Positions 8,680 through 16,587 of a DNA stretch of 64,000 nt are shown one piece after another. How positions within the stretch are numbered: position 1 is the first letter of the stretch; each line of letters opens with the position of its first letter. The stretch is from an uncultured Dehalococcoidia bacterium (GTDB lineage Bacteria; Chloroflexota; Dehalococcoidia; Lucifugimonadales; UBA3495): positions 1,219,936 to 1,283,935 of the forward strand of contig OY282565.1 in NCBI GenBank assembly GCA_958296445.1. Reading direction: 5' to 3'. The notes below the pieces were generated by a model. That model was not told the DNA's origin, made no database searches, and was given only the letters and a program-made list of their open reading frames with translations. Position numbers and translations under genes: made by a program.

Positions 8680-9942
8680 ATGGCCGCCCCCGACTACTAC
8701 AACCTCCTAGGCATTGCCCGCAACGCCAGCGAAGAGGAAATACGCCGCGCTTTCCGCCGCAAGGCGATGGAGTACCACCCCGACCGCAACAAAAACCCCA
8801 ACGCCGAGGAAAAATTCAAGGAAATCAACCAAGCCTACCAAGTCCTTTCCGACTCTGAGAAGCGCTCAAACTACGACCGGGAGCGCCCCCCCGCCAACCC
8901 CGCCCGCCCCCCCGGAAACGCCGCCGCCAACGACCGCGAACCCCCCTACGGCAACGCAAGAGAATCGGGAACCCGTCGAAACTTCCGCGGCAGGTCTCAA
9001 GAACGCCAAAGCCGCCGGACAGAAAACCCCACCGGCAACCGCGCCGGATTCGAGCATCCCTTCGGCAACCCCCGCCACGACGCCAAACAAACAACCCGCC
9101 AAGAACAGGAACGCCAATCCCGCCAAGAGCAAGAGGAATCGGAACGCCAATCCCGCCGCGCCCAAGAAGACCACGACCGCCAAACCCGCCTAGATCAGGA
9201 AGAACAGGAACGCCAAACAAGGCGCATCCAAGAAGAGCAGGAACGCCAAGAACGCCGAACCTTCGAGGAACAAGAGCGCGAAGAGCGCCTAAGCCAAGAA
9301 GTCCAAAAGCTATGGGCAAACTACGAATCCGAGCGTAAATCCCGCCGAGCCCAAGAAGACCACGCCCGCCAATCCCGCCTAAAGCAGGAAGAACAGGAAC
9401 GCCAATCCCGCCGCGCCGAGGAAAACCGCGACCGCCAAACCCGCCTAGAGCAAGAGGAACAGGAACGCCAAGCTCGCCGCGCCGAGGAAAACCGCGACCG
9501 CCAAACCCGCCTAGAGCAGGAAGAACAGGAACGCCAAGCCCGCCGCGCCGCGGAAGACCGCGACCGCCAAGCCCGCCTAAAGCAGGAAAAACAAGAGCGC
9601 CAAACCCGCCTAGAGCAAGAGGAATTGGAACGCCAAGCCCACCGCGCCGAAGAAGACCGCCAACGGCAAGCCCGCCAAGAGCAGGAAGAACAGGAACGCC
9701 AAGCCCGCAACGCCGAGGAAGACTGCCAGCGTCAAGAGCGCCTGAAACAGGAAGAACAAGAGCGCCGGGCCCGCCGGGCCCAAGAAGAACAGGAACGCTG
9801 GACACGCTTAACCGAAGAAGACCGCCTACGCCAAGAGCGGGAAATACGGCAACGCCGGGCCGCCTTAACCACGACTGAATCCCGCCCCCTCTCCAACCGC
9901 ATCCGCTCCCGCCTCCGCAAAGTATTCGGCATTATGCGATAA
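8680..9942 (+). CDS. J-domain protein with long 11-residue charged repeats
   Basis: A 420-residue protein. Residues 1-70 are a complete J domain with the HPD tripeptide ([19 protein letters not shown]), able to stimulate Hsp70 ATPase. Residues about 125-395 are almost only Arg, Glu, Gln and Ala, in an 11-residue rhythm ([22 protein letters not shown]) forming 22-residue doublets. This predicts one very long charged helix or right-handed coiled coil. The last 20 residues ([16 protein letters not shown]) are basic and amphipathic, possibly binding nucleic acid or membrane. There is no G/F-rich region or zinc finger. The ATG at 8680 has GGAG six bases ahead. Partner and role are unknown; another DnaJ lies at 49.5 kb. 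Confidence 0.85.
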
Positions 9943-14663: not shown

Positions 14664-14827
14664 CCGGAAAATAAGGGCGGCAGAAACGGCGAACAGCCCG
14701 GCAAACCCCCGCAATTTCCCCAATACCGCCCGTCCGGGTTCGCATCGGAATCTATGCCGTGTTAGACTGGCCTATCTGCCGAAACAGTGCCGGGCGTTTT
14801 CCCGCGCCCCGGCCTGGCGGGCCCGTT

Positions 14828-15574
14828 ATGATAAAAGTAATCACCTTCGACTTCTACAACACCCTGGTAAAATTCTGGCCCCCCCTAGAGGAAATCCAGC
14901 AGGACGCCTGCCGGAAAATGGGCCTCGCCGTTTCCCGCGAAGCAATCCGCCGCGGCTACGCCAAGGCCGACATCCTGTTCAACCGGGCCAACGAGGAAGA
15001 GCCGCTGTCCCTGCGCTCCCCGGAGCGGCGGCTAGAGTTTTTCGCCGAATACGAAGGGCTGATCCTCGAAACCGCCGGCGTCCCCGTCACCCCGCTACTG
15101 GCCCGGCAAATATGGGGGCTGGCAATCGCCGTTCCCAAAGAATTTGCCCCCTTCGAGGACACCATCCCGGCCCTGGATGCCCTGCGGGAGCGCGGCTACC
15201 GCTTGGGCGTAATAACCAACTTGCGGGCCGATCTGGAACCCCTGATACGCCGCGCCGGGCTGGAAAGCATCCTAGAGTTCTCCGTCAACCCGCCCCAAGT
15301 CCCTTCCCCCGCCGGGGCAGCACCGGGGCAAGGCCGCGCCAGGGCCGAAAAGCCCCATCCCCCCATATTTCACGAAGCCCTACGCCGCGCCGCCGTAGCC
15401 CCGGATGAAGTCCTGCACGTAGGCGACCAAATCCGTTCCGACGTCGCCGGCGCCCGCGCTATGGGTATGCGGGCCGCCCTCCTCGACCGCGGCGGCTGGC
15501 ACGACCCGGTACAAGACTGCCCCAAAATCGCCACCCTAAACGAACTAATCGGGCTGCTCCAATCCGCCCCGTAG
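14828..15574 (+). CDS. HAD-superfamily hydrolase, unknown substrate
   Basis: A 248-residue HAD enzyme. Motif I is TFDFYNTLVKF, motif II is GVITNLRADL, motif III is the Lys of AEKPHPPIFHEALRRA, and motif IV is HVGDQIRSDVAGARAMG. The helical cap between motifs I and II makes it a subclass I phosphatase or dehalogenase-like enzyme; the substrate is open. Just before the motif III Lys is a Pro/Ala/Gly-rich insert of about 16 residues (SPAGAAPGQGRARA) read from a GC-rich hairpin-like sequence, which looks like repeat invasion. The ATG at 14828 is chosen because the HAD strand begins two residues later. Confidence 0.85.
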   Translation: MIKVITFDFYNTLVKFWPPLEEIQQDACRKMGLAVSREAIRRGYAKADILFNRANEEEPLSLRSPERRLEFFAEYEGLILETAGVPVTPLLARQIWGLAIAVPKEFAPFEDTIPALDALRERGYRLGVITNLRADLEPLIRRAGLESILEFSVNPPQVPSPAGAAPGQGRARAEKPHPPIFHEALRRAAVAPDEVLHVGDQIRSDVAGARAMGMRAALLDRGGWHDPVQDCPKIATLNELIGLLQSAP

Positions 15575-15617
15575 CCCCCGAAACAATCAAAGCAAATCAA
15601 CCTCCAGGAGCCAAGAA

Positions 15618-16268
15618 ATGACACAGCAAACCCACAACGGACAGCACGACCCGGTTCGGGTAATCGTCTGGTACGACTATATTTGACCGTGGTGCTACAT
15701 CGGCCTGGAGCGGGTCGACAAGCTGGCCCAAGAATTTGACCTCGCCGTTGAGGGCCGCGCCTACCTGTTGCGTCCCGACACCCCGCGGGAAGGCGCGGAA
15801 CGCCCGCCACGCCCCGGCGAAACCCCCGACGAACTTTCGGAACCCCTGCGCGGCCAAGCCCGCGAGTCGGGCCTGATTATGCGCCCGCCCCCCTACACCC
15901 CCAACACCCTGTACTCCCTCGAAGCCACCGAGTACGCCCAGCAGCACGGCAAATTTATGGAGTTCCACCACGCCGCCTATAAAGCATTCTGGGACGACCG
16001 CAAAGACATCGGGCAAATCGAAACCCTAGCCGACATCGCCAACAACGTAGGGCTGGACGGCGCCGATATGGCCCAAAACCTAGAGCAGGGCGCCCACTCC
16101 CAAACCGTCATAGCCCAATACCACCAAGCCCTCCAATACGGCATAAACGGCATCCCCACCTTCCTAGTAGGCGACCCATCCGCCAGCCCCAAACAAGCCC
16201 TAATGTTCACCGGCGCCCACCCCCTCCCAGTATTCAAGCAAGCAATGCAGCACTACCTAAACCAGTAA
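15618..16268 (+). CDS. DsbA-family FrnE-like oxidoreductase with in-frame TGA (probable selenoprotein)
   Basis: The frame starts at ATG 15618 (AGGAG seven bases upstream) and encodes 216 positions ending at 16268, with one TGA at 15684-15686. That codon falls exactly where the first Cys of the DsbA-type CPWC site is expected: residues read VIVWYDYI, then TGA, then PWCYIG. Downstream the FrnE/DsbA fold is intact, including the cis-Pro loop GINGIPTFLV near residue 175 and the final FTGAHPLPVFKQAM block. Such proteins exchange thiol/disulfide bonds in the cytoplasm. A short hairpin can be drawn after the TGA, as bacterial SECIS elements require, but I could not fold it. The alternatives are a single nonsense mutation or a sequencing error. 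No sel genes are in the window. Confidence 0.85.
15702..15728 (+). promoter_or_regulatory. Candidate SECIS hairpin after the in-frame TGA
   Basis: By hand, GGCC (15702-15705) pairs with GGCC (15725-15728) and AGC (15709-15711) with GCT (15722-15724), with a three-base bulge. The loop opens with GGG about 26 nt after the TGA, within the usual distance for bacterial SECIS loops. The pairing is short and has not been computed, so treat it as a suggestion. Confidence 0.3.
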
Positions 16269-16587
16269 CACCCCCCGCCTCGACAGCGCCCCGCCGAATG
16301 AATATCCCTCCCCCACCGGGGGAGGGTTAGGGTGGGGGCGTCCGCCCTAAAACCGGGTGCGCCGCCCTGAACCGGCAGCGCCCCGCCGAACATCCCCTCC
16401 CCCACCGGGGGAGGGTTAGGGTGGGGGCGTCGTCCTGAACCGGCCTCCACCACCCTAAACTGGCGACCATTCCCGCCCATCCTCGTCATTCCCGCGAAAG
16501 CGGGAACCACGGCAGCGCAGGATACAATCAAGACGGCAATCGTTGGAAAGCCGATTCGCGGAAATAAACCCATAAGGTGATCGCCCT
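16269..16587. repeat. Two GGGGGAGGGTTAGGGTGGGG elements between genes
   Basis: Two near-identical units (about 16302-16341 and 16384-16430) of the CCCTCCCCCACCGGGGGAGG hairpin plus TTAGGGTGGGGGCGTC family. A TTCCCGCGAAAGCGGGAA palindrome follows at about 16490. No gene. Confidence 0.8.

Follow-up and report, generated by a model that had tools for sequence, protein, structure and literature searches.

The window, a 64,000-nucleotide stretch of DNA from a Dehalococcoidia genome assembled as one contig (4.0 Mb, 93% complete), carries on its forward strand a DsbA/FrnE-family gene at 15618-16268. Translated with TGA as selenocysteine (Sec, U), this frame encodes 216 amino acids; its sole internal stop is the TGA at codon 23 (15684-15686), and the protein reads MTQQTHNGQHDPVRVIVWYDYI-U-PWCYIGLERVDKL... 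and ends at a TAA. The active-site motif is IUPWCY, in which the frame translation and the relatives place the presumed selenocysteine, U23, at the head of a U-P-W-C site; the remaining part of the motif, PWC, is encoded at 15687-15695 on the same strand, and its C26, the only cysteine of the protein, is the presumed resolving residue. A profile search matched PF01323 (DSBA) at 7.6e-32 over residues 15-211, a match that spans the TGA, and the DSBA domain score is 111.1 bits against a curated cut-off of 25.6. The probability of a 193-codon open frame arising by chance at this base composition is approximately 0.007; the homology alone settles that the reading frame is real. An earlier note, made from the sequence, had claimed a single TGA in place of the first CPWC cysteine of an otherwise intact gene, and the frame and the PF01323 match agree with this. 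The good ribosome site that it described is the Shine-Dalgarno-like CAGGAG at 15604-15609, just 5' of the ATG, and its conserved cis-Pro loop is the GIPTF segment (residues 178-182, 16149-16163, forward strand), which faces the active site. Its expectation that annotation would split or truncate the gene at the TGA also holds, as the standard code yields only a 166-amino acid open reading frame from a TTG start at 15768 to 16268, so that the gene is likely to be truncated in annotation. Around residue 187 the window protein contains 8 extra residues, an insertion not shared by the relatives in the alignment.

A HAD-family hydrolase gene (14759-15574, forward strand) ends 43 bp upstream and is a neighbour of the dsbA gene in 25 of 28 relatives, making it a possible operon partner. 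The order otsA-otsB-rpiB-HAD-dsbA is conserved, and the neighbourhood also includes two ABC transporter genes and argS; none of these conserved neighbours suggests a substrate. Downstream of the gene, window positions 16260-16550 contain repeated GC-rich intergenic segments (ccctcccccaccgggggagggttagggtggggg), possibly a dispersed repeat. Elsewhere in the window, 8680-9942 encodes a DnaJ-like protein with an N-terminus that resembles a J domain by eye and a long low-complexity tail of RQ/E-rich repeats; no match to it was found in the flanks around the relatives' copies of the selenoprotein gene. The window has other in-frame TGA codons with a UxxC/UxxS-like pattern, but these appeared to be chance occurrences, lying in the wrong frame or upstream of a start.

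Matches to the protein were found in 85 of 147 related genomes, and almost every strong match has a single TGA. The named relatives belong to Chloroflexota, as MAGs of the SAR202 cluster or of Dehalococcoidia; SB0662_bin_29 is the closest, with 81-85% identity. When the codon was inspected directly at the family and order level, 63 of 64 genes had TGA at this U-P-(W/F/Y)-C position; the 64 include a paralog from the host genome (UPFC) and leave out one frame in which the Sec site holds Ser and the resolving position holds Ala. A second set came from 301 Chloroflexota genomes drawn evenly, of which 41 gave a match at E<=1e-25. The codon is TGA in 27 of the 29 sequences read and TGC or TGT in the other two. 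Combining both sets, 90 of the 93 genes across Chloroflexota have TGA at precisely this codon and three have a cysteine codon (TGC/TGT), proportions that hold for this subfamily and not for all DsbA homologs, as the search threshold is biased towards close relatives. The protein is conserved before as well as after the TGA, with identities of 42-84%.

The genome of the host encodes the complete Sec machinery. The selA product scores 440 bits with the Pfam model and 536 bits with TIGR00474 (cut-off 268). The selB frame encodes 630 amino acids including the C-terminal SelB part and scores 308 bits, or 333.6 with that part, and selD scores 376 bits. The tRNA-Sec scores 67.9 bits (cut-off 47) and is called by ARAGORN as tRNA-SeC with anticodon tca. 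The host selD (L020:1501-2439, reverse strand) is itself a selenoprotein gene, with a TGA at codon 17 in the context HCAGU. Two further DSBA-type frames with TGA occur in the same genome. The first, L102 (C1:3439101-3439631, reverse strand), is a second FrnE-like selenoprotein gene with a U-P-F-C motif, approximately 43% identity and a hairpin of its own; TGA is also present in the orthologs of L102 from other SAR202 genomes. The other, L124:1480-2103 (near C1:2124854), is a DSBA-domain frame with one TGA and a U-P-F-V motif that also matches PF22234 (Rv2466c-like, mycothiol-dependent nitroreductase) and resembles the "DsbA 3, UxxV" selenoprotein described from GOS data (PMC2398784).

Among the relatives, selA is present in all 27 TGA-bearing genomes of the second set. 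The selA search gave no match in eight other TGA-bearing genomes, all of them incomplete (56-88%); tRNA-Sec is present in four of these, and G009, G029, G039 and G043 (66-87% complete) gave neither a selA nor a tRNA-Sec match. Missing contigs likely explain the absence of sel genes in G029, G039 and G043, because other members of their genus have selA. The Cys-bearing genomes without selA are G091 (91% complete) and G370 (98% complete, one contig), and G412 has a Cys form of the gene, yet selA is present. The only tRNA-Sec-model match in G091, at 50.7 bits, falls in the same band as the secondary matches of other genomes. Phylogenetically, the Cys copies from G091 and G412 are each nested in Sec clades with support of 100/99 (that of G091 at family level), so that at least two Sec-to-Cys replacements appear to have occurred in the subfamily; the Cys gene of G370 is a long branch of uncertain position. 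That Sec is ancestral and near-obligatory in this FrnE-type subfamily throughout Chloroflexota, with the Cys forms secondary and sometimes accompanied by loss of the Sec machinery, is a tentative reading to which we give slightly less than an even chance.

A SECIS-like hairpin lies at 15700-15718 on the forward strand, as indicated by folding, synonymous constraint and covariation. It occupies about 13-32 nt past the TGA and has an 8-bp stem in the window gene. The apical UGGAGC (15706-15711) starts 19 nt past the UGA, and its GG (15707-15708) is invariant among 22 diverse sequences. The element thus has the features expected of a bacterial SECIS, a hairpin soon after the UGA and a small apical loop with a guanosine. 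After the TGA, the family codons read CCN TGG TGC TAC RTC GGC CTG GAR MGN GTC GAC. Measured against the family pool, relative codon entropy falls to 0.40, 0.37 and 0.06 for +5, +6 and +7, and to 0.26 and 0.59 for +10 and +11, whereas it averages 0.94 over the remainder of the gene and 0.93 upstream of the TGA; these low-entropy codons build the arms and the loop of the hairpin. The 30-nt segment folds more stably than synonymous-codon shuffles that keep the protein: the mean z was -2.45 and 61 of 63 genes were negative, and 15 control windows elsewhere in the same genes gave mean z values between -0.21 and +0.11. Dinucleotide shuffles of the window's own hairpin were unremarkable (z of -0.2 to -0.7); the informative control is the synonymous-codon shuffle over the family rather than the dinucleotide shuffle of one hairpin.

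Stem pairing was counted in two explicit registers. In the named stem 77% of cells pair, compared with 20-48% for slid versions in one register and 21-66% in the other. Compensatory changes in the stem include CG to UA or GC and GC to AU, and the covariation score was reached by one of 500 shuffles. RNAalifold gave no consensus helix and no single register with either 22 or 55 sequences, probably because subgroups differ in which of two registers the upper stem adopts. An Rfam scan of the window returned nothing except one tRNA. The hairpin is well supported as an element under synonymous-site selection, and less so as one fixed secondary structure.

Because the host encodes the full Sec machinery and TGA recurs in 90 of 93 related genes, the gene is most likely a genuine selenoprotein gene with its TGA read as selenocysteine. 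The U-P-W-C site claimed in the earlier note is supported by the machinery, the hairpin and the relatives alike. The checks that the note proposed found all four of selA, selB, selC (tRNA-Sec) and selD, a SECIS-like hairpin under selection just 3' of the TGA, and TGA, rarely Cys, at the codon in relatives; none of the results named there as grounds for rejection, such as a complete genome devoid of all sel genes, TGC/TGT in the close relatives or further lesions in the gene, was encountered. A sequencing or assembly error masking a TGC or TGT codon is suggested by the cysteine found at this site in other phyla, for example in a Caballeronia plasmid copy and in D. radiodurans FrnE, but the same TGA codon in independently assembled genomes argues that it is not a read error, and a selected hairpin follows it; we regard an error as exceedingly improbable. 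A pseudogene or truncated gene, in which the TGA terminates translation and the 3' part from the TTG at 15768 is a remnant or a separate gene, would match the standard annotation, which lists only the 166-amino acid frame. It is nonetheless very improbable given the conservation on both sides of the codon, the lack of a second lesion and a TGA that is conserved, not scattered. The homology uninterrupted by the in-frame TGA would equally suit a genome-wide reassignment of TGA, or its read-through as Trp or Cys. However, rpiB and an ABC transporter gene are among the window genes that end in TGA, so that the genetic code is not generally changed; moreover, the codon stands where Cys otherwise stands and the Sec machinery is complete, leaving this explanation as highly unlikely as a pseudogene.

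An AlphaFold2 model built from a 21-sequence alignment has a mean pLDDT of 89.4 and places U23-P-W-C26 at the beginning of the first helix. With this model as the query, the best PDB matches from Foldseek are D. radiodurans FrnE (TM 0.76-0.79) and S. coelicolor SCO1869, which are also the closest solved structures by sequence; kappa GST and 2-hydroxychromene-2-carboxylate (HCCA) isomerase are further structural matches. By eye, the window protein has no signal peptide. It also lacks the C-terminal CxxxxC of the FrnE type, so that its regeneration must differ from that of D. radiodurans FrnE. From the fold and the likeness to FrnE, together with the missing CxxxxC, we infer a cytosolic U-P-W-C thiol oxidoreductase that uses another reductant. 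The product is almost certainly a cytosolic DsbA/FrnE-type thiol-disulfide (selenenylsulfide) oxidoreductase with Sec at the nucleophilic position. The gene, the conserved TGA, the machinery, the selected hairpin and, by prediction, the fold are shown here; that Sec is actually inserted, and with what redox direction, partner and substrate the enzyme works, is inferred, as follows. SelA and SelD would produce Sec-tRNA-Sec, and SelB, on binding the hairpin approximately 20 nt past the UGA, would deliver it there. The U23 selenolate would act as the N-terminal nucleophile that attacks disulfides or other oxidised thiol substrates, C26 would resolve the Se-S intermediate in the manner of the CPWC site of FrnE, and the enzyme would be regenerated by a reductant other than a C-terminal CxxxxC.

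The protein may, alternatively, not be a disulfide reductase but perform other chemistry of the DsbA/kappa-GST/HCCA-isomerase superfamily, such as glutathione- or low-molecular-weight-thiol-dependent reduction or isomerisation, which would leave the Sec reading unaffected. The kappa GST and HCCA isomerase matches, the missing CxxxxC and trehalose and HAD neighbours that give no hint of a substrate are compatible with such a role. On the other hand, FrnE disulfide oxidoreductases are the top matches by sequence as well as by structure, UxxC is a redox motif, and kappa GST and HCCA isomerase are not known to carry a CxxC. We consider this other chemistry unlikely but not negligible, and retain the thiol-disulfide oxidoreductase as the preferred assignment.

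SAR202 is an abundant deep-ocean and sponge-associated group. Standard gene callers truncate the gene, so that this redox enzyme is overlooked or misinterpreted when SAR202 genomes are annotated. The results also tie the marine "DsbA-like" selenoprotein to a likely major host lineage. They provide, across the phylum, a natural collection of Sec/Cys exchanges that is useful for asking why Sec is kept; two of the exchanges are in genomes that lack selA. If Sec is indeed ancestral, the usual Cys-to-Sec direction would be reversed at phylum scale and these abundant bacteria would depend on Sec for a cytosolic redox step.

Among known systems, NF041057, the Rcas_1661-family (seleno)lipoprotein ("DsbG-like"), also comprises thioredoxin-like UxxC selenoproteins, but it is a separate lipoprotein family for which the window protein scores 38.6 bits against a cut-off of 190. 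The SCO1869 DsbA oxidoreductase (PDB 3GL5) belongs to the same DsbA/FrnE subgroup by sequence and fold and is a Cys form. FrnE of D. radiodurans (DR_0659; PDB 5CNW, 5CO3, 5CP1) shares the fold, the position of the CPWC site, the predicted cytosolic location and the cis-Pro loop; in contrast, it has Cys rather than Sec, possesses the C-terminal CxxxxC and is only about 24% identical. FrnE proteins have been described as thiol oxidoreductases of the cytoplasm, and those of Deinococcus carry CP(W/F)C; a C-terminal CxxxxC for regeneration occurs in many FrnE proteins and is absent in some, and the D. radiodurans protein is a proposed disulfide reductase whose mutant shows sensitivity to both cadmium and diamide (PMC8945050).

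The closest parallel is the DsbA-like UxxC selenoprotein family, which has been reported in 41 bacteria (PMC5029168). It appears as nine Sargasso Sea sequences of COG2761/PF01323 in 2005 (PMC1088965), as the 63 sequences of GOS "DsbA 1" in 2008, commoner in marine samples (PMC2398784), and as "DsbA-like protein form 1" in a 2026 review (PMC13188914). The window gene shares with these descriptions PF01323, UxxC, marine bacteria and a bacterial SECIS after the UGA, and it belongs to this already described family. The descriptions cited give no host assignment for the Sargasso and GOS members, whose likeness to the window gene is by description, whereas here the host is a SAR202/Chloroflexota bacterium, with tree, synteny and machinery. 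No paper on this gene in SAR202 or Chloroflexota was found in the open-access literature, and the near-fixation of Sec in the subfamily across SAR202 and much of Chloroflexota may be new.
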